This document shows positions 2,227 to 42,214 of a DNA stretch of 64,000 nt, one piece after another. Numbering within the stretch: position 1 is the stretch's first letter; each line of letters begins with the position of its first letter. The stretch covers positions 62,001 through 126,000 of the forward strand of contig RAYY01000003.1 of the NCBI GenBank assembly GCA_003611875.1, written 5' to 3'. This DNA comes from a bacterium D16-56. GTDB lineage: Bacteria; Bacillota; Clostridia; Lachnospirales; Lachnospiraceae. The translations under genes were made by a program, and so were the position numbers. The notes beneath the pieces were generated by a model, which saw only the letters and a program-made list of their open reading frames with translations, had not been told where the DNA came from and searched no databases.

Positions 2227-2943
2227 TCATTCTCCCATCAGCGCCTCCAAAACTCCCCTGATGCTTCTCTCCTTAACCAAAATCGTCAGATCCGGCTCAT
2301 GTATGTGCTCCAGATAATGAGCATCCGAATTGCTGATAATCCTGCATCCCTCCAGGTAAGGGTTCATTTTCTTTACCTTATGCAGCTTCTTCAAATCCTT
2401 CAGCTCTGCTGTCCTGAATTGGCTGTCCGGCGGCACAAATCCCAAATTGGCAATCAGGCTGTTGGCGCTTTTCTCAATGTGGGCAGGAAACATGACACCA
2501 TCGTAGGAACGCACCAAGTCCCAAAGCTGATCAAATGAAATATCCACACTGTTGATCAGAAGATTGGGTTCTGTTCCCACCACCTCATCTTCCTCGCTGC
2601 AGATCTGCTGCTTTCCAAAAACAGTTTCTTTATTTGGGAATTTCATCAGCCTGTCATAGACATAACCGTCAAAGGCAAGAGCCTGCTTTAGTGCAGGAAA
2701 CAGACAAACCGCATGAACCTCCTCTGATGTATTGATCTCCATGCCAGGAATCGCCAGCACTCCAAACTGCTCTGCCAGCTTCATCACCGCCGGACAGTTG
2801 CGGCAGGAATTATGGTCTGTGACTGCGATTACATCCAAGCCCTTAATAGCAGCCATACCCACAATATTCCCCGGCGTCATATCATCATCCCCGCATGGGG
2901 AAAGGCAGGAATGGATATGCAGATCATAGGTAAGACTGATCAT
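2227..2943 (-). CDS. PHP-domain phosphoesterase-like protein
   Basis: PHP proteins are metal-dependent phosphoesterases. Metal-binding motifs are visible in order: DLHIHSCLSPCGDD at the N-terminus, VTDHNS near residue 42, a mid-protein HIEKS segment, and a C-terminal NSDAH motif. At 238 residues it is a stand-alone PHP domain. It shares the ATGA stop/start overlap with the upstream DRTGG gene, so translation is probably coupled. Such PHP genes recur next to clostridial hydrogenase regulators. The substrate is unknown; possible targets are a phosphorylated nucleotide or a cofactor of the sensory module (inference). Confidence 0.85.
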   Translation of the reverse strand: MISLTYDLHIHSCLSPCGDDDMTPGNIVGMAAIKGLDVIAVTDHNSCRNCPAVMKLAEQFGVLAIPGMEINTSEEVHAVCLFPALKQALAFDGYVYDRLMKFPNKETVFGKQQICSEEDEVVGTEPNLLINSVDISFDQLWDLVRSYDGVMFPAHIEKSANSLIANLGFVPPDSQFRTAELKDLKKLHKVKKMNPYLEGCRIISNSDAHYLEHIHEPDLTILVKERSIRGVLEALMGE

Positions 2944-3284
2944 GTCTGGTTCCCTGAAAGCCTCTCGTGGATCTTCAGTGCAGCATCAAAAATCGGAAGC
3001 TCTGTCCCCATTACCGTGATCTCCTGTTCTTTTGCCTTTTTCATGGCAGCCTCATCCAGCACAGCGCCTTCTGCCATAATAATACATGCTGCGTCCGCCA
3101 GCGCTGCCACTGCCAGCGTGTTCATATTCCCCATAACCGTCACCCATGCGCAGCCTGCCGGGGCACGGCCCATGGCAATACTCAGAAGATCACAGCAAAA
3201 AGGCACGGTAATCTCCCTCCCAGGGTCCTCCCCCACATTCACCACCGTAAATATCCCGCTGTCCAGCAATTCCTGTACTGTCAT
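2940..3284 (-). CDS. DRTGG-domain-like small protein
   Basis: A 114-residue alpha/beta protein resembling the stand-alone DRTGG domain, a putative ligand-binding domain named from a motif beside CBS domains and in phosphotransacetylase-like proteins. It has alternating hydrophobic strands and glycines but no catalytic motif. A second DRTGG-like gene opens the same operon (5294-5641), so the two may form a hetero-oligomer or bind the same small molecule. The ATG at 3284 has GGAG about 8 bases upstream. The role is inferred only from its place between the sensory hydrogenase and PHP genes. Confidence 0.75.
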   Translation of the reverse strand: MTVQELLDSGIFTVVNVGEDPGREITVPFCCDLLSIAMGRAPAGCAWVTVMGNMNTLAVAALADAACIIMAEGAVLDEAAMKKAKEQEITVMGTELPIFDAALKIHERLSGNQT

Positions 3285-3378
3285 ACCATCCTCTCCTTTA
3301 CTTTAAAATCAGAGATGCCAAATGCGCCCGCCAGACTTTCATGTGTGGTGGCGCGTCCGCCGCCGGGCGCATGAAGGT

Positions 3379-4785
3379 TTACTTTCCATCTTCCTCCTCC
3401 GCCTCCTGGTTATCCAGAAGGGACATCTCGTCTGAAATTCTCTGGATATATTCCTTCAAAATCCGCAGGGTCTCCTGTCCTCCTTTATTCCCCTCATGAA
3501 GATCGTCTGCCAGAACAGAGACTTCCTCCGACAGCTTGTGCAGATTCTCCCGCAGATAGTATACACAATCATTTTCACTGGCCTGCCCACGCACAATATC
3601 CTCTGCCAATGCCTTACAGGTAGGCGCCCCGCAGGATCCGCAGTCCAATCCCGGCAGCTTTTTACATAACCGCTCCACCTGGTTTAACCGGGCAAAGCTT
3701 TCCATGAGATTGCCCCCTAAGCTGAACACCGGCTCATACTGAACTCCCGTAGTCCAGGGAACAAGCCTTTCTGCATTGTCCTCCATATCCATGTGGCTTC
3801 TGGCTACCGGCATATATTTGCGCAGCCTCTTCAGCTTTACCTCAGCCACATAGGGGTTCTCCACGGTCAGAACCCCGCCTACACACCCTCCGTTACACGC
3901 ATTCAGCTCCACAAATTTCAGATTGGAAAATTTCTGATCCTCCAGATCCTCCAGCACCCGGATCACGTTCTCAATGCCGTCTGCAGCCAGATAATCATCC
4001 GTAAACAAACCGCTGGCTTCGCCGCCGCTGCGCCCCCAGCTTATCCCGATCTTGCCGGAAGTTACCAGGTCCCATGCCTCCTCCCCCACAGCCTTCATAT
4101 GGGACAAAAGCTGAGGATACATATCCTTTATAGCTAATACATGGTCTACCTGGCTTTTCTCTGTCCCCAAGGGTGACTTGGCATATGTGACCTTGGACGG
4201 GCACGGTGAAATAAAGCAGACCCCAATCTCCTTTCTCTCCAGCCCGGTTTTCTTCATGGCCCGCTGGGCCGCTAAAGCCGCCGCAACCTCCACCGGAGGA
4301 TTAAGAGGCAGCAGGTGGGAAATCAGGTTAGGAAAACGAACCCGGATCAGACGCACTACCGAAGGGCATGCCGTACTGATAATCGGCAGATTGTCCTCAT
4401 GATGGGTTAAATATTCCCGGGTTGCCTCTGAAACCAGCTCCGCCCCGGCGCTGACCTCAAACACATCGTTAAATCCCATAAGAAGCAATGCGTTCAGTAC
4501 AATATTCACATCGTCCAGATTGTTAAACTGACTGTACAGAGACGGAGCCGGCAAGGCTACGGTATACCGGTACTGCTTCATCACATCCATCTTATCATAG
4601 GTGGCATGTTTTGCATGATGAGGACAGACCCGGATACATTCTCCGCAGTCAATGCAGAATTTGGCGTTGATCTGCGCCTTGCCGTTTCTGACCCGGATCG
4701 CCTGGGTCGGACAGCGTTTGATGCAGTTAATGCAGCCCTTGCACAATTCCGGATCCAATCGCACGGAATGGTAAAATTTATCCAT
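3379..4785 (-). CDS. Sensory-type [FeFe]-hydrogenase homologue (group C/D-like)
   Basis: Putative H2 or redox sensor. Two N-terminal 4Fe-4S ferredoxin motifs (about residues 15-25 and 44-54) precede a hydrogenase core with all three H-cluster motifs: L1 STACPS (~137-142), L2 SPCPSK (~193-198) and L3 ELNACNGGCVGG (~293-304). A further 4-Cys motif (DCGSCGAPTC, ~381-390) and a helical, acidic C-terminal tail follow. The position that is Cys in the active-enzyme TSCCP motif is Ala here, as I recall for characterised sensory HydS proteins. No kinase or PAS domain is fused, so output probably goes through the adjacent RsbW-like ATPase. The start has AGGAGG about 10 bases upstream. Confidence 0.85.
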   Translation of the reverse strand: MDKFYHSVRLDPELCKGCINCIKRCPTQAIRVRNGKAQINAKFCIDCGECIRVCPHHAKHATYDKMDVMKQYRYTVALPAPSLYSQFNNLDDVNIVLNALLLMGFNDVFEVSAGAELVSEATREYLTHHEDNLPIISTACPSVVRLIRVRFPNLISHLLPLNPPVEVAAALAAQRAMKKTGLERKEIGVCFISPCPSKVTYAKSPLGTEKSQVDHVLAIKDMYPQLLSHMKAVGEEAWDLVTSGKIGISWGRSGGEASGLFTDDYLAADGIENVIRVLEDLEDQKFSNLKFVELNACNGGCVGGVLTVENPYVAEVKLKRLRKYMPVARSHMDMEDNAERLVPWTTGVQYEPVFSLGGNLMESFARLNQVERLCKKLPGLDCGSCGAPTCKALAEDIVRGQASENDCVYYLRENLHKLSEEVSVLADDLHEGNKGGQETLRILKEYIQRISDEMSLLDNQEAEEEDGK

Positions 4786-4871
4786 AATCTGCTTCCTCCT
4801 GTCCTTTTTCTAAACTTCCTTTCAATCATGGCAGCGCCGCGGGGTCCATTCTTCCCCAACGTCCTGCTGTC

Positions 4872-5294
4872 CTACAGCTTTACGGTCATAGTAATGGTTG
4901 TTCCCACTCCGATGACCGTGTCAATGGTCATGCTGTCCGTATATTTTTTCATATTAGGCAGTCCCATGCCTGCCCCAAAGCCTAAGCTTCTCACCTCATC
5001 CGGCGCTGTGGAATATCCTGCCTTCATAGCCTGGTCCACATCCGGAATGCCCGGTCCCACATCTGCCAGAATCATCTTGATCCGGGCCGGGGTGATCTCC
5101 ACGGTGATCTCGCCTCCTTTTGCATGGATTACCATGTTGATCTCCCCCTCATACATGGCAATGGCAACCTTGCGGATCGCTTCCGGGCTGACCCCAAGCT
5201 GCTTTAATTTGCCTTTCACATCACTGCTGGCCTCTCCTGCCCTGGTAAAATCATCCGGAGATATTTCGTATTTTAATACAATCGCCTCATCCAT
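4872..5294 (-). CDS. RsbW/SpoIIAB-like ATP-binding protein (anti-sigma-factor type)
   Basis: A 140-residue stand-alone GHKL ATPase domain. The N-box (AIAMYEGEINMVIHA, ~65-79), G1 box (LADVGPGIPD) and G2 region (GFGAGMGLPNMKKY) are clear. Proteins of this type phosphorylate anti-anti-sigma partners or hold sigma factors. Its ATG shares one base with the stop codon of the upstream DRTGG gene, indicating coupled translation, and the sensory hydrogenase follows. No STAS-domain partner or sigma factor is encoded nearby, so the target must be elsewhere or unconventional. It is the likely signal-output component of the module (inference). Confidence 0.85.
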   Translation of the reverse strand: MDEAIVLKYEISPDDFTRAGEASSDVKGKLKQLGVSPEAIRKVAIAMYEGEINMVIHAKGGEITVEITPARIKMILADVGPGIPDVDQAMKAGYSTAPDEVRSLGFGAGMGLPNMKKYTDSMTIDTVIGVGTTITMTVKL

Positions 5295-5905: not shown

Positions 5906-6400
5906 ATGGCTTGCAAAAAAGAAGGAGTTCCCTTCAGCGGGACCCCGGAGCAGGAAGCCGCTTTAAAGAAGGTCATCGCCGAGCTGAAGGACACCAAGGG
6001 CGCCTTGATGCCGATCATGCAGCAGGCACAGGAGATTTACGGCTATCTCCCCATTGAAGTCCAGACCATGATCTCCGATGAGACGGGTATCCCGCTGGAG
6101 AAAATCTATGGCATTGCAACCTTTTACGCCCAGTTCGCCCTGCAGCCAAAGGGCAAATACCAGATTTCCGTATGCCTGGGCACCGCGTGCTATGTAAAGG
6201 GCTCTGCGGCGATTTTCAGCAAATTGGAGGAGCTTTTAGGCATTACCAACGGTCAGTGTACTCCGGACGGCAAGTTTTCCCTGGATTCCTGCCGCTGTGT
6301 AGGAGCCTGCGGCCTTGCCCCCGTCATGATGATCAATGACGAGGTATACGGACGGCTGGTGCCGGATGATATTCCGGGCATTCTTGCCAAATATCAGTAA
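5906..6400 (+). CDS. hydC: HydC/NuoE-like 2Fe-2S subunit of NAD-linked [FeFe]-hydrogenase
   Basis: Electron-transfer subunit of the HydABC complex. It has a helical N-terminus and a thioredoxin-fold [2Fe-2S] domain with the C-x4-C (CLGTAC, ~92-97) and C-x3-C (CVGAC) ligand pairs. The length of 164 residues is normal for NuoE-like proteins. A strong GGAGG site precedes the ATG. It is the first gene of the plus-strand operon hydC-HATPase-ferredoxin-hydB-hydA, divergent from the sensory operon. In the family it passes electrons between the NADH/FMN subunit HydB and the other clusters of the complex. Confidence 0.93.
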   Translation: MACKKEGVPFSGTPEQEAALKKVIAELKDTKGALMPIMQQAQEIYGYLPIEVQTMISDETGIPLEKIYGIATFYAQFALQPKGKYQISVCLGTACYVKGSAAIFSKLEELLGITNGQCTPDGKFSLDSCRCVGACGLAPVMMINDEVYGRLVPDDIPGILAKYQ

Positions 6401-6406
6401 GCGCCT

Positions 6407-6964
6407 ATGATGACCGAGCTTTCCTTAAACGTATTGGATGTGGCGGAAAATTCAACCCGTGCAGGAGCGTCCCTGGTTCAGATCACCATTGATGCAGACA
6501 CCTTATCGGATCAGCTTACCATTACCATAGCCGACGATGGCTGCGGCATGACCCCTGAGCAGACTGCACAAGTGACGGATCCGTTTTTCACCAGCAGAAC
6601 CACCCGCAAGGTTGGTCTGGGAGTCCCGTTTTTTAAATATGCGGCAGAAGCGGCCGGCGGTTCTTTTTCCATCGAATCCCAGCTAGGCATCGGTACCACG
6701 GTAAAGGCAGTATTCGTTTTGTCCCACATTGACCGGATGCCTCTTGGGGATATTACAAGTACCATACATACGCTGGTAGTCTACCATCCTGAGACCGATT
6801 TTCTCTATGAGTATTGCTATAATGGGCAGTCTTTTACTCTGGATACCAGGGAATTTAAAGAGGTTTTGGAAGGAGCTCCCTTTGACACCCCGGAGATTTC
6901 CCAATATATTAAAGACTATCTGACAGAAAACAAGCTGGAAGCTGACAAAGGCGCCGTATACTAA
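6407..6964 (+). CDS. Histidine-kinase-like ATPase domain protein within the hydABC operon
   Basis: An orphan GHKL ATPase domain: N-box LNVLDVAENSTRAGA (~5-19), G1 DDGCGM, F-box DPFFTSRTTRKVGLGVPFFK and a G2-like region near residue 90. No dimerisation/phosphoacceptor domain is present; the last ~80 residues have no recognised fold. The ATG lies 4 bases after hydC's stop, so it is made with the hydrogenase subunits. It resembles the kinase domain of two-component sensors rather than RsbW, and may be a regulatory partner of the sensory hydrogenase across the divergent promoter (inference). Confidence 0.85.
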   Translation: MMTELSLNVLDVAENSTRAGASLVQITIDADTLSDQLTITIADDGCGMTPEQTAQVTDPFFTSRTTRKVGLGVPFFKYAAEAAGGSFSIESQLGIGTTVKAVFVLSHIDRMPLGDITSTIHTLVVYHPETDFLYEYCYNGQSFTLDTREFKEVLEGAPFDTPEISQYIKDYLTENKLEADKGAVY

Positions 6965-7016
6965 AAGGAACGTAACGGATTGATTGCTCAATATTTCTTA
7001 AATTTTGGAGGATACT

Positions 7017-7394
7017 ATGAAAAGCCTTGAAGAATTAAAAGCCATCCGCAACAAAATGCAGGGCCAGGTGGGTCTGCGTGCGGAGGATCATAACCATACC
7101 CGCGTGGTTGTCGGCATGGCCACCTGCGGAATTGCAAGCGGCGCAAGACCTGTCTTAAATGCCCTGTCCACCCTGGTCCAGGAAAAGGGTCTTACAGGCA
7201 AGGTAGCCGTCACTCAGACCGGCTGTATTGGCCTGTGCCAGTACGAGCCCATTGTAGAGGTCATGGAGCCAGGCAAGCAAAAGATCACCTACATCAAGAT
7301 GAATGCCGATAAAGCTGCTGAGATCGTGGAACGTCACCTGATCGGGGGACATGTGGTAGAAGAATATACTCTGAATTCAGCAGACATCAAATAA
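7017..7394 (+). CDS. Thioredoxin-like [2Fe-2S] ferredoxin-domain protein
   Basis: A 125-residue NuoE-like C-terminal domain without the N-terminal helices. The second ligand pair is present (TGCIGLC), but the first pair is reduced: ATCGIASGA has one Cys where NuoE has C-x4-C. Cluster binding therefore needs another ligand or has been altered. The ATG at 7017 is chosen because GGAGG lies 6 bases before it; a TTG at 7005 would overlap that site. It sits between the ATPase and hydB genes and is conserved in many clostridial hyd operons as an accessory electron carrier (family knowledge, recalled). Confidence 0.85.
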   Translation: MKSLEELKAIRNKMQGQVGLRAEDHNHTRVVVGMATCGIASGARPVLNALSTLVQEKGLTGKVAVTQTGCIGLCQYEPIVEVMEPGKQKITYIKMNADKAAEIVERHLIGGHVVEEYTLNSADIK

Positions 7395-7405
7395 GGAGGA
7401 CCAAA

Positions 7406-9193
7406 ATGTATCGTTCACATGTATTAGTCTGCGGCGGAACAGGATGTACATCCTCCGGCAGCCAGCAGATAATGGAAGCATTAAGAACAGAGATCGAGAA
7501 AGCAGGTCTGCAGGACGAGGTATCGGTTGTCCAGACCGGCTGTCATGGTCTTTGTGCATTAGGGCCGATTATGATTGTGTATCCGGATGCCAGCTTCTAC
7601 TCTATGGTCAAGGTAGAGGATATTCCGGAGATCGTTTCCGAACATTTATTAAAGGGCCGTGTAGTGACCCGCCTTCTGTATCAGGAGACCGTAACCCAAT
7701 CAGGCGTCAAAGCGTTGGTGGATACGGACTTTTATAAAAAACAGCACCGGATCGCCCTGCGCAACTGCGGCATTATTAATCCGGAAGTTATTGAGGAATA
7801 CATTGGAACCGGCGGCTATGCTGCTTTGGGTAAGGTTCTGACAGAGATGACCCCTGACCAGGTGATCCAGTGCCTGATGGATTCCGGCCTTAGAGGAAGA
7901 GGCGGCGGCGGCTTCCCCACTGGCCTTAAATGGAAGCTTGCCAAACAAAATGAAGCGGATCAGAAGTATGTTTGCTGCAACGCCGATGAAGGTGATCCCG
8001 GCGCATTTATGGACCGTTCTGTACTGGAAGGAGATCCTCATGCCGTGCTGGAGGCCATGGCCATTGCCGGCTATGCCATCGGAGCCAACCAGGGCTACAT
8101 ATATGTTCGTGCCGAGTATCCTATTGCGGTAGAGCGTCTCAAGATTGCCATCAGACAGGCAAGAGAGATGGAGCTTTTAGGCAAGGATATTTTTGGAACC
8201 GGATTTGATTTTGATATTGATCTGCGTCTTGGCGCCGGGGCATTTGTCTGCGGTGAAGAAACTGCCCTGATGCACTCCATTGAGGGCAACCGGGGCGAAC
8301 CCAAACCCAGACCTCCGTTCCCGGCTCAGAAGGGCCTGTTCGGCAAGCCCACGATTTTGAATAATGTGGAAACCTACGCCAACATTCCTCAGATTATCCT
8401 GAATGGTCCAGAGTGGTTTGCCTCCATGGGTACAGAAAAATCCAAAGGAACCAAGGTGTTTGCTTTAGGCGGCAAGATCCACAACACCGGCCTGGTGGAG
8501 ATTCCCATGGGCACCACTTTAAGGGAAGTAATCGAAGAAATCGGCGGCGGTATTCCCAATGGAAAGAAGTTTAAGGCTGCCCAGACCGGTGGTCCTTCCG
8601 GCGGATGCATCCCTTACGAGCACTTTGATATTCCCATTGACTACGACAACCTGGTTGCTATCGGATCCATGATGGGCTCCGGCGGTCTGATCGTCATGGA
8701 CGAGGATGACTGTATGGTAGATATCGCCAAGTTCTTCCTGGAGTTTACTGTGGAGGAGTCCTGCGGAAAATGTACTCCCTGCCGTGTAGGCACTAAGCGC
8801 CTTCTGGAGATGCTTACCAAGATCACCAAGGGGCAGGCTACCATGGAGGATCTGGATAAGCTGGAGGAGCTTTGCTATTATATCAAAGAGAACTCTGCCT
8901 GTGCCTTAGGCCAGACCGCCCCCAATCCGGTGCTTTCCACGCTTCGCTATTTCCGCGACGAGTATGAAGCCCATGTCAAAGAAAAAAGATGTCCGGCCGG
9001 AGTATGTAAGGCGCTTCTCTCCTACCATATCAATGCTGATAAGTGCCGCGGCTGTACCTTGTGTGCGCGGAACTGTCCCAACAACGCCATCAGCGGCTCT
9101 GTACGGAACCCGCACATTATTGACCAGGATAAGTGTATCAAGTGCGGCGCTTGTATGGAGAAGTGTAAATTCGGCGCTATCTACAAACAGTAA
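7406..9193 (+). CDS. hydB: HydB/NuoF-like NADH-binding flavoprotein subunit of bifurcating hydrogenase
   Basis: Carries FMN and NAD(H) sites of the electron-bifurcating HydABC hydrogenase. Domains in order: N-terminal thioredoxin-like [2Fe-2S] domain (CGGTGC, then TGCHGLC), FMN/NADH fold with GRGGGGFPTGLKW and GDPGAFMDRS, SLBB region, 4Fe-4S site ESCGKCTPCRVG, and a C-terminal pair of 4Fe-4S ferredoxin motifs (CRGCTLCARNC, CIKCGACMEKC). The length of 595 residues is normal for HydB, longer than NuoF because of the extra cluster domains. AAGGAGG precedes the ATG, and hydA follows after 16 bases. Confidence 0.95.
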   Translation: MYRSHVLVCGGTGCTSSGSQQIMEALRTEIEKAGLQDEVSVVQTGCHGLCALGPIMIVYPDASFYSMVKVEDIPEIVSEHLLKGRVVTRLLYQETVTQSGVKALVDTDFYKKQHRIALRNCGIINPEVIEEYIGTGGYAALGKVLTEMTPDQVIQCLMDSGLRGRGGGGFPTGLKWKLAKQNEADQKYVCCNADEGDPGAFMDRSVLEGDPHAVLEAMAIAGYAIGANQGYIYVRAEYPIAVERLKIAIRQAREMELLGKDIFGTGFDFDIDLRLGAGAFVCGEETALMHSIEGNRGEPKPRPPFPAQKGLFGKPTILNNVETYANIPQIILNGPEWFASMGTEKSKGTKVFALGGKIHNTGLVEIPMGTTLREVIEEIGGGIPNGKKFKAAQTGGPSGGCIPYEHFDIPIDYDNLVAIGSMMGSGGLIVMDEDDCMVDIAKFFLEFTVEESCGKCTPCRVGTKRLLEMLTKITKGQATMEDLDKLEELCYYIKENSACALGQTAPNPVLSTLRYFRDEYEAHVKEKRCPAGVCKALLSYHINADKCRGCTLCARNCPNNAISGSVRNPHIIDQDKCIKCGACMEKCKFGAIYKQ

Positions 9194-9209
9194 CTGAAGG
9201 AGAATGGAT

Positions 9210-10958
9210 ATGGAGAATATTACAATTAAAATAAACGGCATAGAAGTAAGTGCTCCAAAAGGCTCCACCATACTGGAAGCCGCCAGACTGGCCCATATCG
9301 AGATCCCTACCCTATGCTATTTAAAGGAGATCAATGAGATCGCTGCCTGCCGGATGTGTGTGGTAGAGGTCAAAGGTGCCAGAAGCCTGGTAGCCGCCTG
9401 CGTCTATCCTATCAATGATAATATGGAGGTGTGGACCAACACCCCCAAGGTGCTGGAATCCCGCAAAAAAACCTTGCAGCTTTTGTTATCGAACCATGAC
9501 CGCAAGTGCTTATCCTGCGTCCGCAGCGGCAATTGTGAGCTGCAGCAGCTTGCCAAGGAGCTGGGTGTAGATGATGAGGGCAAGTATGACGGAGAACGCA
9601 CTCCGTCCTGCATTGACGACAGCGCCGCCCATATGATCCGTGACAACAGCAAATGTATTCTGTGCCGCCGCTGCTCCGCCGTCTGTGAAAGGGTGCAGGG
9701 TATCGGCGTTATCGGCCCCAATGAACGCGGTTTTGCCACCTTTATCGGCTCACCTTTTGAGATGGGCTTAGGGGAAACAAGCTGTGTATCCTGCGGCCAG
9801 TGTATTGCTGTCTGTCCCACCGGCGCTCTCCAGGAGAAATCCCAGATCGATGAGGTTCTGGCCGCCATTGCAGATCCGTCAAAGCATGTGATCGTGCAGA
9901 CTGCTCCTGCTGTCCGGGCCGGACTTGGGGAAGAATTCGGCTATCCTATCGGGACCAATGTAGAAGGAAAGATGGCTGCTGCCCTTAGGCGGATTGGCTT
10001 TGACAAGGTATTTGATACCGATTTCAGTGCAGATCTTACCATTATGGAGGAGGCAAATGAATTTATCGACCGTGTTCAGAACGGAGGCGTCCTTCCCATG
10101 ATCACCTCCTGCTCTCCGGGATGGATCAAGTACTGCGAACATTATTTCCCGGATATGACCGAGAATCTGTCAAGCTGCAAATCGCCGCAGCAAATGTTCG
10201 GTGCCATTGCCAAATCCTATTATGCCGAAAAGGCTGGCCTTGATCCCAAGGATATTGTATCTGTGTCCATTATGCCCTGTACGGCAAAGAAATTTGAAGT
10301 GCAGCGTCCGGACCAGGCTGCCAACGGTGTGCCGGATGTGGATATTTCTCTGACCACCCGTGAGCTTGCCCGCATGATCAAACGTGTGGGACTGCGGTTT
10401 TCAGAACTGCCGGATGAAGGATTTGACGCGCCTTTGGGTCTCGGTACCGGCGCTGCCGTAATCTTCGGCACTACGGGCGGCGTTATGGAGGCTGCCCTGC
10501 GTACCGCAGTGGAGACCTTAACCGGCCAGGAGCTGGCAAGCTTAGACTTTACGGATGTACGCGGCATGGAGGGCATCAAGGAAGCCTCTTACACGGTGGC
10601 TGGTATGGATGTAAAGGTTGCTGTAGCCTCTGGACTGGGCAATGCCAGAACCCTTCTGAATAAGGTGAAATCCGGTGAAGCCAATTACCATTTTATTGAG
10701 ATCATGGGCTGCCCGGGCGGATGTATCAACGGCGGCGGCCAACCCCAGCAGCCCGGCTATGTGCGCAATACCGTAGATATCCGCTCTCTGAGAGCCAAGG
10801 TATTGTATGATTCTGACAAAGATAACCCGATTCGTAAATCCCATGAGAATCCGGCTATCAAGGAGCTTTATGATACTTATCTCGGAAAACCGGGAAGCTC
10901 CAAAGCACACCATCTCCTTCACACAACCTATGTAAAAAGGAAAATCAATGAACTTTAA
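9210..10958 (+). CDS. hydA: Group A [FeFe]-hydrogenase catalytic subunit HydA
   Basis: Catalyses H2 formation or oxidation in the HydABC complex. It has an N-terminal [2Fe-2S] domain (Cys residues ~36-64), a His-Cys ligated 4Fe-4S domain (HDRKCLSCVRSGNC, ~96-109), a two-cluster ferredoxin domain (~149-202) and the H-cluster domain with L1 ITSCSPGW (~298-305), L2 MPCTAKKFE (~355-363) and L3 MGCPGGCINGGGQP (~499-512), ending in a small-subunit-like tail. L1 reads TSCSP rather than TSCCP. The ATG at 9210 is chosen since GAAGGAG lies 7 bases upstream; an in-frame ATG at 9204 is only 1 base from it. The maturases hydEFG are not in the window. Confidence 0.95.
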   Translation: MENITIKINGIEVSAPKGSTILEAARLAHIEIPTLCYLKEINEIAACRMCVVEVKGARSLVAACVYPINDNMEVWTNTPKVLESRKKTLQLLLSNHDRKCLSCVRSGNCELQQLAKELGVDDEGKYDGERTPSCIDDSAAHMIRDNSKCILCRRCSAVCERVQGIGVIGPNERGFATFIGSPFEMGLGETSCVSCGQCIAVCPTGALQEKSQIDEVLAAIADPSKHVIVQTAPAVRAGLGEEFGYPIGTNVEGKMAAALRRIGFDKVFDTDFSADLTIMEEANEFIDRVQNGGVLPMITSCSPGWIKYCEHYFPDMTENLSSCKSPQQMFGAIAKSYYAEKAGLDPKDIVSVSIMPCTAKKFEVQRPDQAANGVPDVDISLTTRELARMIKRVGLRFSELPDEGFDAPLGLGTGAAVIFGTTGGVMEAALRTAVETLTGQELASLDFTDVRGMEGIKEASYTVAGMDVKVAVASGLGNARTLLNKVKSGEANYHFIEIMGCPGGCINGGGQPQQPGYVRNTVDIRSLRAKVLYDSDKDNPIRKSHENPAIKELYDTYLGKPGSSKAHHLLHTTYVKRKINEL

Positions 10959-25962: not shown

Positions 25963-29167
<3,205 letters not shown>

Positions 29168-33670: not shown

Positions 33671-34965
33671 TTATTCTGACGCCATGGTCTTTTCCATGAC
33701 AATGTCATTCATCTTTACAAACGGAATATAAAGCAGGATTCCTAATATCAAAATCACCAGCTGGACAACAATTGCCCGCACATCCCCGCCTGTAGCCAAA
33801 TATCCGCTTAAAAGCGGCGGTGTCGTCCACGGAATATACACGACACATTCGTTCATAAAATTCATGGCCGTTGCCGCATACCCAATCACAATACCGATTG
33901 CCGGCGTAAGTACAAAGGGAATAAGCATGCAAACGTTATACACAATGGAATATCCAAATATCACAGGCTCATTAATATTGAAAAGCCCTGGAACAAAAGC
34001 CATTTGGGACACTCCTCTTGTGGCCTTGTTCCTGCTTACCAGCAACGTGGCAATCAGCAGACAGATGGTTGAACCAGAACCGCCCATCATACCAAAAGCC
34101 GGAACAAAGGCCACATTGATAATATTGGGGATTGCCTCTCCCGCCGCATATGCTGCCATGTTCTGCGTCATGTTTACGATCAGCAGGGGCTCCAATATCG
34201 AGCTGTAAATGACAGACTGGTGAATTCCCAAAATCCAGAGAAAATTACCCAGACTATACAAAAGCACACATCCCAGCAGACCTGTGGTTGCCGTGCGAAG
34301 CGGCTCCTGAATCAGCATGGTAATAATATGTACCAGGTCCGTGTGAAACACATTATTCAACACTGCACTGATCAGCGCAAATCCGGACATAACCAGAATA
34401 AACCGGATCAATACATTAAAGGACTTGCCCACAGCCGGAGGGATACTGTCCCCCAGATTGATCTTCAGTCTCTTAATGCTGCTGATCCAGACAAAGATCT
34501 CTGTGGCTGCCAGACCGATAATTACGCCTGCAAACATAGCCCCTGTGCCGATGTTGCTAAAGCTTAGCGCTCCCTGTGCCAGCACTTCCCCGCTTCCGTC
34601 CAGCGGATCCCAATCACATTCGGCATCATCACCACCAGAGAGGCCAGGGATATGACTGCTGCAGCCAATGGATTCTCATATCCCTTATTCTGAGACAGCA
34701 TATATCCGATTACCGGAGCAATCAAAAGCGAGCTAATATTCAATGTTCCGTTGACAATCAATGTACCCCAATACTGGGCCCCTGTCAGAGCATCTCCGGA
34801 CAAAAGCCATTGAAACACCGTATTATTAATCAAAACCGCCAGACCGGCCAGAATATACAGCGGCATGATCGTTGCAAATGCATCCCTTAGCGACCGGAGA
34901 TGGATCTCATTGCCCAGCTTTGAGGCAAACATGGTAAACCTTTCCACAAACTTGGAATTACCCAT
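33671..34965 (-). pseudogene. PTS lactose/cellobiose-type IIC permease, -1 frameshift
   Basis: Membrane component of the beta-glucoside PTS. It is read in two frames: residues 1 to ~118 (34965 to ~34612) and the remaining ~310 residues (to 33671). The frame changes at a GGG run (complement of 34609-34611) where a fourth G would give the continuous reading VIGDPLDGSGEVLAQG, normal for this family. The joined product of about 430 residues has the full set of helices and TTPPLLSGYLATGGD near the end. The gene is either broken by a one-base loss or the base was missed in sequencing; no canonical slippery heptamer is present. Confidence 0.85.
34609..34611 (-). other. Frameshift position in the IIC gene
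   Basis: Minus-strand GGG. The upstream frame runs on only to a stop near 34564; the downstream frame is open from upstream of this point. One extra G restores a single frame. Confidence 0.75.
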
Positions 34966-35059: not shown

Positions 35060-36462
35060 TTAGCTGATTTCCTGCTCCCGCGCTCTGATCACCTCCTGTA
35101 TCCACGCCGCGGATTTCTTCCATCTCCGCTGATAGTTTCCTGCCAGATCTACCTCAACCATGCCATATCGGTTTTTAAAGGCATTGTTCCAGGACCAGTT
35201 ATCAATCAATCCCCAATAATGATAACCCATACACTTAGCTCCATCCTGAATCGCCTTTAAAATCCATTCTAAATGCTCCTTTACGAACTCAATCCGATAA
35301 TCATCCTGTATCTGCCCTTCTTTGTCACGGAATCGGTCTTCATGCTCTACGCCCATACCATTTTCTGAGATAAAGAACTTTAGATTCGGGTATTCCTCCT
35401 TCATCTTTATTCCAAAATCATAGATTCCTTTTGGGTAAATCTCCCATCCTCGGTAAATGTTCATCTTTGCCTCCGGCCATACATAAACGTCGGCATATTT
35501 CGGATATCCCTTCTGGTCAAACTTCTCCCTCGGCGCCTGAACACGGGAGGGATGATAATAATTAAAGCCCAGCCAGTCTACCCTTCCCATAGCCAGAATT
35601 TGCTCATCTCCTGGCCTCATATCCGGAAGAAGTCCGCTATCCTTTAAAGTCTCTAAAATATCCTTGGGAAGCCTTCCCTCTGCTACCAGATCCAGCCACC
35701 ACCGGTTCTTCACCCCGTCCTCCATTCGGAGCGCCTCCAGATCCTCCGGGCTTGGATCCTCCTTTGTATAAGGCGGAGCGAAACAGTTAATCAGGCCAAT
35801 CTTTGCCTCTGGGAGAAGGAAGCCCTCCTCCTTTGCTTTTTGAAACTCCCTTACTGCCAGACAGTGCGCCAGAGACAGATGATACTGCACGGCCATACCT
35901 CTCTTGGCGTCCTGAATAAAGGGATACCAAAGTCCGTCCCGATATCGCTGATCTGGTTCTACAATCGGTTCATTAAAGGTAAACCAATATGTAATTTCCT
36001 TTCCAAATTCCCGAAAGGCTGTCCTGGCATATGTTGCATATGCCTCTACCACCTCACGATTCTCCCAGCCGCCCTTCCTAAACAGATAAGCAGGCATATC
36101 AAAATGATACAGATTCATAAACAGCTCAATCCTCTGCTCCTTGGCACAGGCACAAACCTTGTGATAGAAATCAGCCCCCTCTGGATTCAGCTTCTGGTCC
36201 TGATCCATCAGTCTGCTCCACTGAATAGAGGTTCGGAAGGAGTCCAGTCCAAGACTCTTGAAAAGCTTAATGTCCTCCTCATATTTTTCATAAAAATTAT
36301 TTCCCACATAGCTTCCGACCTTATTGTAAAAATCGGAAATAGAAAGGTCTGACCAGGTATCCCAGATATTTCCAGCTTTCCTCCTGTCCGATAAGCGCCT
36401 TCCGTCTGCGGCCCGGACATCGCCGCCCCCATAAAAAAATCTTTTGGCAACCGAAGCTCCAT
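35060..36462 (-). pseudogene. 6-phospho-beta-glucosidase (GH1), -1 frameshift near N-terminus
   Basis: Cytoplasmic hydrolase for PTS-phosphorylated beta-glucosides. The first ~31 residues (MELRLPKDFFMGAAMSGPQT...) are in one frame and the remaining ~435 in another. An AAA run (complement of 36369-36371) would give a continuous KLENIWDTWSD reading if it were AAAA. Catalytic Glu motifs are intact: TFNEP (~170) and FFISENGMG (~360). Internal ATG codons, such as the one opening MGNNFYEKYEED, cannot give a functional barrel without the N-terminus. It is first in an operon with IIC, IIB and IIA. As in IIC, mutation and sequencing error are both possible. Confidence 0.85.
36369..36371 (-). other. 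Frameshift position in the GH1 gene
   Basis: Minus-strand AAA where one more A restores the family reading KLENIWDTW. It is the second homopolymer one-base deficit in this operon. Confidence 0.75.
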
Positions 36463-37471: not shown

Positions 37472-38923
37472 TTAATGCCGGTGCATGGCCACCTCGCTGG
37501 CTCCAAGGTTTCTCAGGTTCTCATGTACCTCCCTGCTGTCCGCCTGCCCGATCAGAAGATCCCTGGCCTTTTTGGCCTCTGTCTCAGACTTATGCTTGCT
37601 GGGACCTCCGACACAGCCGCCCACACAAACCATGCCTTCCACAAAATCTGCCGGAAGCTTGCCTACCTTCATCAGAAGCAGCGCCTTCTTACATTCCGCA
37701 GCGCCGTTGCACCTCATCACATTGGGGCTGATATCCTCATTCATCTCCTTAAAGCACTGAACCACCGCCGCAGTCACACCGCCGGAATTGCCGAACCGCT
37801 TGCCGTATACAGAGCTGTCCTGATAGGTGTTCTCCTCTGGCTCCAGCTCCACGCCCTTGGCCCGCATCATGGCCCGAATCTCTCCAAAAGTCATGGCATA
37901 GTCAGCATTTCCCGTAATATTCAAGTCCAGTGTCTCGCTCTTTTTTGCAATACACGGCCCGATAAAGACCGTGATCGTCTCCGGATCACGCTCCTTTAGC
38001 ATACGGGAGACTCCGCACATAGGCGAAACGGTGGTAGACATGTTGTCAAGAAGCGTGGGAAAATGCTGCCGGATCATATTTACAAAAGCCGGACAGCAGG
38101 ATGTGGTCATCTTCTTCCCCTCTTTATATGCCTCCGCCCATTCCGCCGCCTCGGCCGCTGCCGTTAGGTCACCGCCAAGCCCCACCTCAATCATGTCGGC
38201 AAAACCGATTTTTTTCAGGGCAGTCTTCCAGCTTGCCATGGTGATCTCCGCTCCAAACTGCCCCTCCGTAGCAGGGGCAACCATGGCTACCACCCGTTTT
38301 CCGGCATTGATCAGGCGAATCACATCCACCATAAAAGTCTTGGTTCCGATAGCGCCGAAAGGACAGCTATGGATACAGGCGCCGCACTGAATACATTTCT
38401 TTTCATCGATCACACAGATTCCATATTCATCATAAGTAATGGCATCAACCGGGCATACCTTTTTACAGGGTCTCTCTAAGTGGGCAATGGCGCTGTAAGG
38501 ACATGCCTGCGCACACTTTCCGCACTCTTTGCATTTTCCCGGATCAATATGTGCCCGGCTGTCCCCAATGGTGATGGCTCCGAAATTACAGGAATTTTGG
38601 CATGCCTTTCCCATACAGTTCCGACAATTGTCCGTTACCACGTAAGAGGCAATGGGACACTCCTCGCAGGCAGCCTTAATAACCTGCACCACATTCATGG
38701 AATCCATTCCCACCGGACATTTTCCTTCTGCTAAGCGGACCCTCTGTTTAATTATCTCTCTCTCTTTATAAATACAGCAGCGGAACTGAGCCTGGGGACC
38801 CGGGAACATCTGATGGGGAAGCTCATCCCGCTTCTCCTCCAGTGTTCCCTCCCATGCCAGCTTTGCAACCTCACAGAGCACGTCATGCTTTATTTTTAAG
38901 ATTGTTGCGTCATTTGTTACCAT
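37472..38923 (-). CDS. Group B-type monomeric [FeFe]-hydrogenase
   Basis: Ferredoxin-linked hydrogenase of 483 residues. Its N-terminal half has several Fe-S Cys motifs (CRNCMGKACQNSC, CKECGKCAQACPYSA, CKKVCPVDA, CIQCGACIHSCPFGA). The H-cluster motifs are L1 TTSCCPAFV, L2 GPCIAKKSE and L3 VCVGGCVGGP; TSCCP is intact, so catalytic activity is plausible. Group B enzymes are poorly characterised. AGGAGG precedes the ATG. It is the last gene of an operon with a hydrogenase-type sensor and a SpoIIE phosphatase, so its expression or activity may be H2-responsive (inference). Confidence 0.9.
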   Translation of the reverse strand: MVTNDATILKIKHDVLCEVAKLAWEGTLEEKRDELPHQMFPGPQAQFRCCIYKEREIIKQRVRLAEGKCPVGMDSMNVVQVIKAACEECPIASYVVTDNCRNCMGKACQNSCNFGAITIGDSRAHIDPGKCKECGKCAQACPYSAIAHLERPCKKVCPVDAITYDEYGICVIDEKKCIQCGACIHSCPFGAIGTKTFMVDVIRLINAGKRVVAMVAPATEGQFGAEITMASWKTALKKIGFADMIEVGLGGDLTAAAEAAEWAEAYKEGKKMTTSCCPAFVNMIRQHFPTLLDNMSTTVSPMCGVSRMLKERDPETITVFIGPCIAKKSETLDLNITGNADYAMTFGEIRAMMRAKGVELEPEENTYQDSSVYGKRFGNSGGVTAAVVQCFKEMNEDISPNVMRCNGAAECKKALLLMKVGKLPADFVEGMVCVGGCVGGPSKHKSETEAKKARDLLIGQADSREVHENLRNLGASEVAMHRH

Positions 38924-38985
38924 AAGCCTTTAACCTCCTCGTTCTTGTAGACAAAGTGTAACCGTTCCGTTGACCAGATATCCTA

Positions 38986-40167
38986 TTAATAATACGTTAC
39001 CGTAACTGGTTTTCCCATTTCTTCCACGGTGTGCTTTAGCTGTTCCACCAGATTTTGCCGGATTCCCAAGTCAAAAGGCAGACCTGGATTTTGATAAGCG
39101 CTGTTAATGGCTTTTCCTACATACAGATGAAGCTCCGTGCAGTCTTCAATCAGCATCTTTGCCACCATGGATGCCCCGTTAGGCTTGTCAATCTCCAGAA
39201 AGAAATCCTCTGACACGGTTTCTTTCTTTGTGTATCGCTTTAATAGCTGAATCACCCGGTTTAAGGTCAGCACCCCTTCTGTTACCAAATCGATTCCATC
39301 CATATAAGCAATGGGCGGGATCTCCGGATCTACATAATCCAGGGACACATCTAAGGATTTTTTTAATACGCGGGATACAATGGTTGAACTGGTGCCGCCG
39401 CACACGATCCGCCTGGTCTCATCCCCGCCGCTCATCCAGCTGTTCACCATCTCCACATCCCGGGATGCATCCTGTGCCGGACCGGTCATAAGATGGACCG
39501 GCTTTGCATTGATCACCCGCATACAGGCAACGGTAGTATCATCGCCGGGGCGGTACTCATAAAGCTCGTCACATGCCTGACAGACCGCTGACGCCAGACG
39601 CATGGCAGATATGGTCTTTGAATACTGCTTTACCGCGTAATCTGCAATATCCTCCCACACCCATCCGAAGTTCAGAAGACGTCCTACCCCTGCATGGATG
39701 GTTCCGTCACTCATTAAAAGCAGCGCATCCCCTCTCTGCACCGTGAACCGGTATTCGTTGATCCTTTTGCCCTTAACTTCCCGGATATTCTGGGGTATGG
39801 TCATCAGCCTTCCGTTGCGGATAAAAATACAACCCGGATTGTCAAACTCCACCAGATACGCATCTCCGCTGTGAAACACCTGGAGAATACTGAACGTGGC
39901 ATAAGCCACCTGTCTTACCTGACAGATAGGCAGCGTCTCTACAATGGTCTCTACACACTCCTCTAAGGAAGCACCGTTTAAAAACATGGTTCCCAGGATC
40001 TTGGAAGTCAAAGTAGCCAGAATGTTGGCCTTTACGCCGCTTCCCATGCCGTCAGCCAAGATCATGATATTGGAATCCTCGGTCTTCAGGATCTCCACCT
40101 TATCCCCACACAAAATCTCGGTAAATTTATTGAGACTTTTATATGCAACATCTACGGAAACTCCCAT
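38986..40167 (-). CDS. SpoIIE-type PP2C serine phosphatase
   Basis: PPM/PP2C-like phosphatase domain (residues ~1-220) with metal-binding motifs ILADGMGSG (~32-40), LMSDGTIHAG (~150) and PGDDTTVACM (~205). SpoIIE-like enzymes dephosphorylate anti-anti-sigma factors. The C-terminal ~170 residues (CGGTSSTIVSRVLKKS onward) have no named domain that I recognise. The ATG immediately follows the stop of the hydrogenase-PAS sensor gene, so the two are translationally coupled. This pairing matches the phosphatase-linked sensory hydrogenase class (C3 in a published classification, as I recall). The target protein is not encoded nearby. Confidence 0.9.
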   Translation of the reverse strand: MGVSVDVAYKSLNKFTEILCGDKVEILKTEDSNIMILADGMGSGVKANILATLTSKILGTMFLNGASLEECVETIVETLPICQVRQVAYATFSILQVFHSGDAYLVEFDNPGCIFIRNGRLMTIPQNIREVKGKRINEYRFTVQRGDALLLMSDGTIHAGVGRLLNFGWVWEDIADYAVKQYSKTISAMRLASAVCQACDELYEYRPGDDTTVACMRVINAKPVHLMTGPAQDASRDVEMVNSWMSGGDETRRIVCGGTSSTIVSRVLKKSLDVSLDYVDPEIPPIAYMDGIDLVTEGVLTLNRVIQLLKRYTKKETVSEDFFLEIDKPNGASMVAKMLIEDCTELHLYVGKAINSAYQNPGLPFDLGIRQNLVEQLKHTVEEMGKPVTVTYY

Positions 40168-41898
40168 TTACACACCTCCGTTGTCGCCGTCCTCCAAAAG
40201 AGACTGGCAAAGCTTCGTCAGCGTGGTCTTGGTCTCTGCTGTCGTCTCGCCCAAAAGCCCTGCGATCTCCTGGGCCACCATCATCTGCTTGTGGATAACC
40301 TTCTGGGCCAGGTCAATGGTATCCAGCTTCTTCTCATAATCAGCCCGGGCCAGCTCCTCCTGCTGGGTAATATCAATAAAGGTGGCAAGGACTGCATTTT
40401 CCTTTTCTATGTAAACAATGTTCTGGAGTGTATCCAGCTGATACTCGGAATAAGTTACCTTCTTGCCGTGAATATTCTGATGTGTGTCAAACACCCACTG
40501 GAAATCTGCAGGATCGATAAATTCATACAGATACATTTTCAATGCCTCGGAGCGGGTTTTTCCAAAATACTTTTCCCCCACAGCAGAATACTCCAGAATC
40601 TTCATCTCCTCATCTACCAAAAGAACCATGTTGGGAGAGGTCTCCATAACCAGGTTGGCAAGAGATTCCGACTGTTCATACATATAAGGAATACACATAT
40701 TAAGCTCTGCCTTTTTCTGGAATACAGCAATGGCCTTTTCCCTACAGGTAGGATAACCGCAGGCGCCGCAGTTTAGCTCGTCCTCCGGCCTGTTTTTTCC
40801 TGTCTTGGCAAGGATTTCCCGAATCTGAGCCTCTGTGGGAACCGGATCCTTGGGCGAATGATCCTGGAAGGTCTTTGCCAGGGAAATGGATGCCCGCACA
40901 GGCGCCGTCTCCTCCTCCGGAACCGGATTTTTGGGGACTGCCTCCTCCATATCCAGCTTTACCTTAAAACGGGAAATGGATTTGTCTGTAACCGTGGGTC
41001 CCTTGATACATCCGCCATAACACATATTCATCTCAATAAAGCAGCCTGTGATCTCTCCCCGCAGCATACTGTCACACAGCTCCATACAGTTCTGTTCCCC
41101 ATGAATATAAAATTTGCGGTACGAATCCGTCTTATTCTGCGTGGCAACAACAGAGCTGATCACACCGCTGCTGACCGGATAGAGCCGGTTGATCCTGGGA
41201 TCCCTTTCAAACGGCAGATCCTCACAGTCCTCTATCACTATATCCTCATCCCGGAGCCAGCGGTTCAAATCATTAAAATTTAATACCGCATCAATACAAT
41301 CCTTATGGCGCTCATCCTGAGCCTCCTGCTTTTTTGCAATGCAGGGGCCAAGAAATACCACCTTTATATCCTTGCCCAGCTCCTGCTTTAAAAGCATTCC
41401 ATGGGCAATCATGGGAGATACCACCGGAGCCATGCATGGAATCAGCTGGGGATAATATTTTTCAATCAGATCATTGGCGCTGGGACAGCAGGTGGTGATA
41501 ATATTTTCCATGGTCCCATCTTCCAGCAATCTGGCATACTCTGCCGTTACCAAGGCTGCTCCTTCCGAGGTCTCACGAACATCAGAAAATCCCAGTTTTA
41601 AAAGAGCCGCCCGAACCTGGCCAATGGTATGGTATTTCAACAATCCCATGTAGGCGGGAGCTAAGGATACCACTACCTTCTCTCCTCTTGCTATGTAGCT
41701 TCTCACCTTGCCTAAATCGCTTATCAGAGTCTTGGCTGACTGGGGGCAGATCTGCAGGCACCGGCCGCACAAAACACAGTTTTCCGGCATGATCTCAGCT
41801 CGCCCGTCCTTCACCATGATCGCTTTGACCTCACAGTTGCGGACGCATTTATAACAATGTCGGCATTTGGTTGCTTTAAAGTCAATAATTGCCGCCAT
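40168..41898 (-). CDS. Sensory [FeFe]-hydrogenase with PAS domain (group C-like, HydS)
   Basis: Putative H2 sensor. Order: two 4Fe-4S motifs (CRHCYKCVRNC ~12-22, CVLCGRCLQIC ~41-51), H-cluster domain with L1 ITTCCPSAN (~134-142), L2 LGPCIAKKQE and L3 NMCYGGCIKGP (~291-301), a 4-Cys domain (NCGACGYPTC, ~376-385), a PAS domain (~415-515; MVLLVDEEMKILEYS) and a helical tail. L1 keeps both Cys, unlike the sensor at 3379-4785. Signal output is likely through the coupled SpoIIE phosphatase. The preceding ferredoxin-like gene ends 2 bases upstream. Confidence 0.9.
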   Translation of the reverse strand: MAAIIDFKATKCRHCYKCVRNCEVKAIMVKDGRAEIMPENCVLCGRCLQICPQSAKTLISDLGKVRSYIARGEKVVVSLAPAYMGLLKYHTIGQVRAALLKLGFSDVRETSEGAALVTAEYARLLEDGTMENIITTCCPSANDLIEKYYPQLIPCMAPVVSPMIAHGMLLKQELGKDIKVVFLGPCIAKKQEAQDERHKDCIDAVLNFNDLNRWLRDEDIVIEDCEDLPFERDPRINRLYPVSSGVISSVVATQNKTDSYRKFYIHGEQNCMELCDSMLRGEITGCFIEMNMCYGGCIKGPTVTDKSISRFKVKLDMEEAVPKNPVPEEETAPVRASISLAKTFQDHSPKDPVPTEAQIREILAKTGKNRPEDELNCGACGYPTCREKAIAVFQKKAELNMCIPYMYEQSESLANLVMETSPNMVLLVDEEMKILEYSAVGEKYFGKTRSEALKMYLYEFIDPADFQWVFDTHQNIHGKKVTYSEYQLDTLQNIVYIEKENAVLATFIDITQQEELARADYEKKLDTIDLAQKVIHKQMMVAQEIAGLLGETTAETKTTLTKLCQSLLEDGDNGGV

Positions 41899-41900
41899 AT

Positions 41901-42140
41901 TTACAGCCTCCCCATGATTTCCTTATTAAAAAATTCTTCGGTGGTTTCCGGCGACAAGGAAAACAATTCTCCGTCTATAGTTACACATACACCGTTCACA
42001 CAATTCCCACTGCAGAACGCACCGTTTAAATCTACCTTGTCCGCAACATTGTGATTTTTCACCAGCGTCTGCAGCTTCTGAATGATTTCTCTTGACCCTC
42101 TTAAATGACATGCACTTCCAATACAAATTGATACTCTCAT
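41901..42140 (-). CDS. Small thioredoxin-like [2Fe-2S] protein (NuoE C-terminal type)
   Basis: A 79-residue [2Fe-2S] domain with both ligand pairs, CIGSAC (~6-11) and CSGNC (~44-48). The ATG at 42140 is preferred: GGGAG lies 5 bases upstream, while a TTG at 42155 would include that site in the gene. It is the first gene of the operon with the PAS-hydrogenase, phosphatase and group B hydrogenase. It could carry electrons to the sensor or to the group B enzyme (inference). Confidence 0.88.
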   Translation of the reverse strand: MRVSICIGSACHLRGSREIIQKLQTLVKNHNVADKVDLNGAFCSGNCVNGVCVTIDGELFSLSPETTEEFFNKEIMGRL

Positions 42141-42184
42141 GACTTCTCCCTTCAAAATGAAATGAACTGTGAGCCTACCAAAAC

Positions 42185-42214
42185 ATTATCTCACATTGAT
42201 ATATCTTTATCAAT
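42185..42214 (-). promoter_or_regulatory. Promoter with overlapping palindrome for the HydS operon
   Basis: Minus-strand -35 TTGATA (42208-42213), a 17-nt spacer and -10 GATAAT (42185-42190). A 20-bp inverted repeat with 7-bp arms (ATTGATA, 6 bases, TATCAAT; 42195-42214) covers the -35 and spacer. Its 18-bp core has the same size and half-site geometry as Rex sites, but two bases per half differ from the consensus I know. Confidence 0.6.

Follow-up and report, generated by a model that had tools for sequence, protein, structure and literature searches.

How does an [FeFe]-hydrogenase that senses hydrogen (H2) pass on its signal? This has been raised as a question in print (PMC8163306; papers are cited by PMC number throughout, each from partial text), and it arises again in a 64-kb window of the genome of bacterium D16-56 (Lachnospiraceae, contig RAYY01000003.1; all coordinates are positions in this window), where a sensory hydrogenase lies next to a protein phosphatase. 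On the minus strand, a thioredoxin-like [2Fe-2S] protein (TrxFd) is followed by a PAS-containing sensory hydrogenase (HydS), a SpoIIE/PPM-type phosphatase and a group B hydrogenase, and all four open reading frames are confirmed. The best explanation, which I consider probable, is an operon of the hfsABCD type in which HydS switches the phosphatase via its C-terminal helix and so sets the balance between H2 and ethanol. This explanation builds on direct observations, namely the gene content and order, the intact residues of the H-cluster and of the phosphatase metal site, a near-obligate gene pair and a conserved tail on HydS. The operon is of the type known from Thermoanaerobacterium and has a relative in the Ruminococcus albus hydS cluster, and the idea that an H2 sensor steers a hydrogenase is already published; what is added here is the quantified pairing of HydS and phosphatase, the tail, a phosphatase domain without a Pfam family, and a catalytic partner that is exchangeable. 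The pair and its tail make the question of the sensor's output experimentally tractable.

The pairing was counted in sets of loci that overlap (e.g. L010/L118, L012/L121) and are not independent, with all counts uncorrected for kinship. In the order set, the phosphatase is present in 74 of 246 genomes at 77 places, which leaves 75 loci once the window's own and a broken one (G148) are left out; the class set has it in 86 of 291 genomes at 88 places; the named set comprises the best 80 of 581 stretches encoding a phosphatase relative, and [Clostridium] clostridioforme (80% protein identity) and Lacrimispora xylanisolvens (79%) rank among the closest named relatives. Among loci with enough stretch, the gene just before the phosphatase is HydS in 74 of 74 cases (order set) and 79 of 79 (named set), a pairing that is far from chance and near-obligate. 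HydS in turn is preceded by TrxFd in 57 of 71 order-set and 46 of 72 named-set loci, and the group B gene is next after the phosphatase in 43 of 73 and 36 of 78. The cassette also stands beside the genes of HydABC, either upstream (L030, L031, L033, L036, L038 and others) or downstream (L039, L070, L071), and in L026 a rex-adhE-APH-kinase block is followed by TrxFd, HydS and phosphatase, where 'rex' is a reading of PF06971 plus CoA_binding. As the pairing persists while the group B, HydABC or rex-adhE-kinase neighbours vary, sensor and phosphatase form a constant core, to which the catalytic enzyme is an exchangeable addition. An earlier note on this DNA had linked the group B hydrogenase to the sensor, as its target or as the source of its H2 signal; of this linkage the HydS-phosphatase part is conserved and the group B gene often follows, but it is no constant member. 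Control of the adjacent hydrogenase by the sensor has been inferred in print (PMC5707799, PMC11837493, PMC6776011).

In the window, the intergenic gaps are 2, 0 and 62 bp in the order of the genes, and the TAA of HydS directly abuts the ATG of the phosphatase, in frame. Both the tight spacing of the four genes and the contact between sensor stop and phosphatase start had been described in the earlier note, and both stand, at the same positions. A programmed readthrough from HydS into the phosphatase is nevertheless unlikely, because the zero gap is found in only 4 of 74 and 6 of 79 loci, and the commonest junction, a 4-base overlap (27 order-set and 18 named-set loci), is out of frame. Fused HydS-phosphatase proteins of the Rosetta-stone kind were not seen in the 75 and 80 loci of the two sets. 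As a separate observation, L159 and L165 carry one phosphatase and two HydS genes, in a tandem interrupted by TrxFd, and some relatives have genes in several frames (HydS in L007 and L083; group B and HydA in L086), which reflect either assembly errors or decay.

HydS (40168..41898, minus strand) is hfsB-like and has the layout of a group C sensor: an N-terminal 4Fe-4S domain, the PF02906 H-cluster domain, PF04060 (residues 375-404), PAS (417-471) and the C-terminal helix. At the level of domains, the earlier reading of a sensor-type gene with H-cluster and PAS is thus upheld. Each of 140 HydS sequences compared, every one of them from a locus beside a phosphatase, keeps the H-cluster cysteines 138, 186, 293 and 297. 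Group C (M2f) hydrogenases are described as having a C-terminal 4Fe-4S cluster and then a PAS domain (PMC13104023), and HydS shows this order together with the H-cluster cysteines. Against TIGR04105, the group B1 model, it scores 213.2 bits, below the cut-off of 450. A tree of 97 sequences (31 HydA, 31 group B, 31 HydS and 4 group D-type, drawn from 34 HydA, 68 group B and 137 HydS available plus the window's own) supports HydA with 1.0, group B with 0.991 and the four group D-type members with 1.0; HydS alone receives 0.182, and HydS together with the group D-type 0.902. As this tree contains no named references, the assignment to class C or D rests on domain layout. The group C sensor TmHydS of Thermotoga maritima shares the hydrogenase domain, the C-terminal 4Fe-4S cluster and PAS (PMC13104023), whereas the proton-transfer position is Ala in TmHydS (PMC10055695) and Cys in the HydS of the window.

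The most conserved part of HydS is located past PAS. The 35-residue window with the highest information content starts at residue 530 (residues 530-564; 40207..40311, minus strand), with a mean of 3.53 bits over the 140 sequences, and is the conserved C-terminal helix that I propose as the contact with the phosphatase. By region, the means are 3.47 bits for residues 532-566, 3.09 for the C-terminal FeS domain, 2.28 for the hydrogenase domain and 1.95 for PAS. When the 291 genomes were searched with the last 60 residues of HydS, 83 matches were obtained in 82 genomes, 78 of them in frames of 559-599 residues (the others have 292, 479, 615, 635 and 765), and in 80 of the 83 cases the phosphatase is the next gene downstream. 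Three matches depart from this: in G338 both genes share a contig but are separated by ~16 kb, in G284 the match belongs to the leading copy of a HydS tandem, and in G301 it sits where a contig ends. Conversely, eight phosphatase matches in these genomes have no tail match upstream: four are divergent (G384, G479, G306 and G402, 28-29% identity), and the rest are gene parts at a contig end or record start (G483, G286) as well as G338 and G362. The window's group D-type protein has a C-terminal end of different sequence. Because of its conservation and its co-occurrence with the phosphatase, the tail of HydS is probably an output helix that docks on the phosphatase. A limited literature search, largely without full texts, found no description of this tail; no novelty in print is claimed.

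The phosphatase (393 aa, hfsC-like; 38986..40167, minus strand) matches PF07228 over residues 34-218 with 51.0 bits, above the cut-off of 25, and D39, D154, D209 and D210 do not vary across two alignments (30 and 60 sequences), so that the SpoIIE-type identity given to it earlier holds, with the metal-site aspartates intact. These alignments were picked by hand, with phosphatases 30 of 76 (A1) and 60 of 81 (the window plus named loci; A3, A4), and HydS 28 of 75 (A2). Its model, with a mean predicted local distance difference test score (pLDDT) of 88.8, matches 3pu9 (Z 25.9, root mean square deviation 3.2 over 226) and SpoIIE 5ucg (Z 24.9, 2.6 over 213), and the protein stays far below the SpoIIE equivalog cut-off (TIGR02865, 24.7 vs. 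490.8 bits). With the SpoIIE/RsbU family it shares the PPM fold and the invariant metal-site aspartate. Unlike that family, its PPM fold fills residues 1-221, and it is therefore without an N-terminal sensor of its own; it has no membrane part either, and it carries an extra C-terminal domain of ~170 residues. This domain (residues 222-393; 38989..39504, minus strand), modelled alone, has a pLDDT of 90.3. A Pfam search gave no match for the window's member and scattered weak ones among 60 members, and Foldseek returned nothing at E <= 0.001. The top eight chains in a second structural comparison were molybdopterin-type oxidoreductases or their relatives, with 6s6y_F at Z 9.1 (3.0 Å over 116), NuoG 7nz1_G at Z 8.5 (3.1 Å over 121) and 8rja_B at Z 8.1 (3.7 Å over 124). 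This likeness is weak, and a profile comparison with Escherichia coli NuoG gave a probability of 0.2%, for which reason no homology is claimed.

The fourth gene encodes a group B1 [FeFe]-hydrogenase (483 aa, hfsD-like; 37472..38923, minus strand), as the earlier note had it: the curated cut-off of TIGR04105 is passed with 591.6 bits, and the group B clade has the support given above. The role of such enzymes had been called unknown, which is out of date, given that HfsD, a group B enzyme, is possibly the chief source of H2 in Thermoanaerobacterium saccharolyticum (PMC8924675) and that H2 in the human gut is reported to be driven mainly by group B hydrogenases (PMC12578642). The operon is one plausible route by which some group B hydrogenases of the gut are regulated. 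In the 291 genomes, where counts of group-B-type proteins are lower bounds, at least 119 matches were found, at least 39 of them directly behind the phosphatase; the matches come from at least 116 genomes, in at least 61 of which this phosphatase was not seen. Scored per genome on these lower bounds, 55 combine the two, 31 have the phosphatase alone, 61 group B alone and 144 neither, which corresponds to an odds ratio of 4.2, uncorrected for kinship.

The hfsABCD operon of T. saccharolyticum has the same order, with a small gene, a PAS-hydrogenase (HfsB), a protein related to Ser phosphatases (HfsC) and the group B enzyme HfsD (PMC11837493, PMC8924675); the two operons are likened here by layout, not by sequence identity. 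The first gene of the present operon plainly encodes a TrxFd, while HfsA is said in print to align poorly with any known protein, and the host of hfsABCD is a thermophile, whereas the window's genome is of the Lachnospiraceae type. Deletion of hfsA or hfsB in T. saccharolyticum raised ethanol ~1.8-fold, with more adhE transcript, while deletion of hfsC and/or hfsD gave no rise in either (PMC5707799). These phenotypes appear to fit a phosphatase that acts downstream of HydS. The hydS-hydA2 cluster of R. albus likewise combines a PAS-bearing HydS of group C with a Ser/Thr phosphatase and a ferredoxin hydrogenase, but its catalytic enzyme is called group A1, and an alcohol dehydrogenase and other regulators are included; the cluster (group C hydrogenase, ferredoxin hydrogenase, alcohol dehydrogenase) was 111-fold lower in co-culture with an H2 consumer (PMC6776011). 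Among the present loci, L026 has a form with a rex-adhE-kinase block.

Fused SpoIIE/RsbU phosphatases are switched by a linker helix, and the mechanism that I favour may be likened to this. H2, or the redox poise set by H2, would be read at the H-cluster of HydS, and the signal would travel via the C-terminal 4Fe-4S cluster and PAS to the C-terminal helix, which would dock on the separate PPM phosphatase and switch it. The phosphatase may then dephosphorylate some Ser/Thr protein, and this could set the balance between H2 from the ferredoxin-type group B hydrogenase and NADH-consuming routes, e.g. ethanol. The NuoE-like [2Fe-2S] protein TrxFd probably passes electrons to or from the hydrogenases, and a Rex-type operator may add control by NADH/NAD+. 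Either state of HydS could be the one that activates the phosphatase, and control could accordingly run in either direction.

Several points weigh against this explanation. In an hfsABCD deletion, hfsD alone also gives high ethanol (PMC11837493), and therefore the published ethanol phenotype need not run via the phosphatase. HydS and phosphatase are separated in G338, as noted above, and in G362 (L162:6496-7948) HydS is missing and 28 bp separate TrxFd from the phosphatase, beside HydABC, an arrangement that amounts to a natural counterpart of an hfsB deletion. The 140 sequences, picked beside phosphatases, cannot show that the tail is absent from a HydS that has no phosphatase, and the search with the tail informs on this partly. 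Finally, the proton-transfer Cys is kept in 100 of the 140 HydS, the window's included, while it is present in only 17% of sensory hydrogenases (PMC10055695), so that some catalysis by HydS is possible.

Alternatively, the system may read the poise of an electron carrier (ferredoxin or NADH) rather than H2, with TrxFd as the input to the FeS chain of HydS. TrxFd (79 aa, hfsA position; 41901..42140, minus strand; PF01257 32.9 bits, cut-off 24.8) probably starts at ATG 42140, after AAGGGAG, and not at TTG 42155; it likewise has 79 aa in the close relatives L005 and L006. Upstream of it, the best promoter-like site is a predicted sigma-70 promoter, TTGATA-17-GATAAT (42185..42213, minus strand). 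It matches at 10 of 12 positions, and both hexamers can be seen when eight upstream regions are aligned, though promoter-like sites are about as numerous here as in shuffled sequence (7 vs. a shuffle mean of 6.2). The -35 hexamer and the spacer of this promoter are overlapped by a predicted Rex-type palindrome, TTGATAAAGATATATCAA (42196..42213, minus strand). By the strict form of a published rule for Rex sites (PMC5886521), a 5-bp inverted repeat around 8 AT-rich bases with at most one G or C, this is the sole site in the window, where 0.045 are expected and 9 of 200 simulated windows had at least one. The longer Rex consensus TTGTTAANNNNTTAACAA was tried as well and rejected, as its 3 matches in the window vs. 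2.5 expected are not significant; only the shorter rule singles the site out.

In relatives, a rule site with at most one mismatch lies within 250 bp upstream in 18 of 142 cases, compared with 1.6 +/- 1.4 in resampled regions, which were used because the control region at -1000..-750 (0 of 139) is unmatched in composition. The Rex-type site is thus enriched and far from universal: of the eleven nearest named loci, L080-L090, five carry it (L080, L081, L085, L086 and L090) and six do not, and by the Rex rule the upstream regions of L005 and L006 have no site. A Rex site is also predicted upstream of hfsABCD (PMC5886521, Table 5), as it is upstream of the window's operon. The predicted operator on the promoter, the position of TrxFd directly upstream in most loci and the FeS domains that flank the H-cluster of HydS on both sides would all suit a system that reads carrier poise. 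However, HydS and phosphatase stay in the 14 of 71 and 26 of 72 loci where no TrxFd was found, and the four H-cluster cysteines, invariant throughout, would be needless for a pure redox relay. I regard this alternative as possible, but the less likely one compared with a sensor of H2.

A second alternative takes in genes outside the operon. A second putative sensory [FeFe]-hydrogenase, of the group D layout, is found at 3379..4785 (minus strand), with a C-terminal 4Fe-4S domain, no PAS match, and an L1 motif, TACPSVV, without the proton-transfer Cys. Directly upstream of it lies an RsbW-like ATPase (4872..5294, minus strand; PF13581 40.3 bits, cut-off 27.4), a possible kinase counterpart ~34 kb from the phosphatase in the same window, and this arrangement recurs at 132 of 139 places in the 291 genomes. 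The phosphatase and this kinase could be the two arms of one phospho-switch with two H2 sensors. They are the sole members of PF07228 and PF13581 above cut-off in the genome, apart from one other SpoIIE-domain protein and one further PF13581 protein; the latter stands beside the only STAS protein found, and the two are probably SpoIIAB and SpoIIAA. Moreover, G338 (L160/L161) has a same-strand run, headed by the phosphatase, of phosphatase, small protein, RsbW-like ATPase, group D sensor, small protein, PHP, HydC, HydD, HydB, HydA and HATPase; further on, after three other genes, come TrxFd, HydS and, immediately behind HydS, group B. Both modules are on one strand in L095 (4104-11644: RsbW-like, group D sensor, small protein, PHP, TrxFd, HydS, phosphatase, group B) and, within 6 kb, in L097 (4412-10179: kinase, group D sensor, PHP, HydS, phosphatase, without TrxFd and group B), and the kinase-sensor and HydS-phosphatase modules flank HydABC in L085-L087, L110 and L128. 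Such joint clusters are few cases, though.

Per genome, 49 of the 291 have both phosphatase and group D sensor, 37 only the phosphatase, 89 only the sensor and 116 neither, a weak co-occurrence (odds ratio 1.7, p 0.04, uncorrected for kinship). Kinase and phosphatase as an obligate unit were rejected for this reason, while the joint clusters in G338, L095 and L097 keep the possibility of a pair alive. As for a dedicated substrate, PF01740 finds only the one STAS protein, beside the SpoIIAB-like ATPase, in a genome that is 97.5% complete (PF13466 was not searched), and this argues against a dedicated switch of the sigma-B type. Taken together, the two-arm switch is a tentative alternative that I would not prefer to an output through the phosphatase alone. 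A version without STAS seems somewhat less likely still: the HydS helix would work the phosphatase and the group D sensor the RsbW-like kinase, the shared substrate would be an unrecognised regulator of hydrogenase or fermentation, and the C-terminal domain of the phosphatase, faintly NuoG/FwdB-like, would read a second, redox-linked ligand.

It is rather improbable that HydS is a working redox subunit that forms one hydrogenase complex with TrxFd and the group B enzyme, the phosphatase being a side regulator. The Cys next to the H-cluster, kept in most HydS, would agree with this, and HfsABC might form a functional hydrogenase without HfsD (PMC13277313). TrxFd and group B also tend to co-occur, with 38 loci having both, 17 TrxFd only, 4 group B only and 10 neither in the order set, and 31, 14, 2 and 23, respectively, in the named set. 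However, HydS has a PAS domain and a tail that is tied to the phosphatase and not to the group B gene, and deletion of hfsB raised hydrogenase activity (PMC5707799). Moreover, the position that corresponds to M497 of CpI by motif spacing is Asn or Ser in 127 of the 140 HydS, and it is Ser in TmHydS (PMC8163306); the change of M353 to Gly in HydS is less telling, since the group B protein reads GPC too. That the group B gene is a mere neighbour, not regulated with the cassette, is very unlikely, for although the 62-bp gap and the limited share of group-B-type matches behind a phosphatase would allow it, a scan of the gap gave no terminator-like and no promoter-like site on the operon strand, the presence of both genes is associated across genomes, and the T. 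saccharolyticum papers treat the four hfs genes as one operon.

The genome of 5.54 Mb encodes four hydrogenase-domain proteins, all inside the window. Those outside the operon are the HydA of an electron-bifurcating type HydABC (5906-10958) and the group D-type sensory protein, and all four are located within ~38 kb (3379-42140). In L085-L087 (L086 is Lacrimispora xylanisolvens) all these modules are found within ~12 kb, with the group D gene cut by the end of the stretch. At 2227-5294 (minus strand), the RsbW-like ATPase and the group D-type hydrogenase are followed by a 114-aa protein (2940-3284), presumably of the DRTGG type, and PHP, and together they make up a second signalling cluster, divergent from HydABC. 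Upstream, the operon borders on the gene for a Cthe_2159-type carbohydrate-binding protein, and downstream on that for a GntR/UTRA regulator. By eye, the genes for a phosphotransferase system (PTS) IIC protein and a glycosidase each appear as two overlapping frames (33671-34965 and 35060-36462, minus strand), possibly because of frameshifts or sequencing errors, and a LacZ-type beta-galactosidase is present as two open reading frames of 644 and 333 aa (25963-28882, minus strand), which correspond to the N-terminal and the C-terminal portion of the family model.

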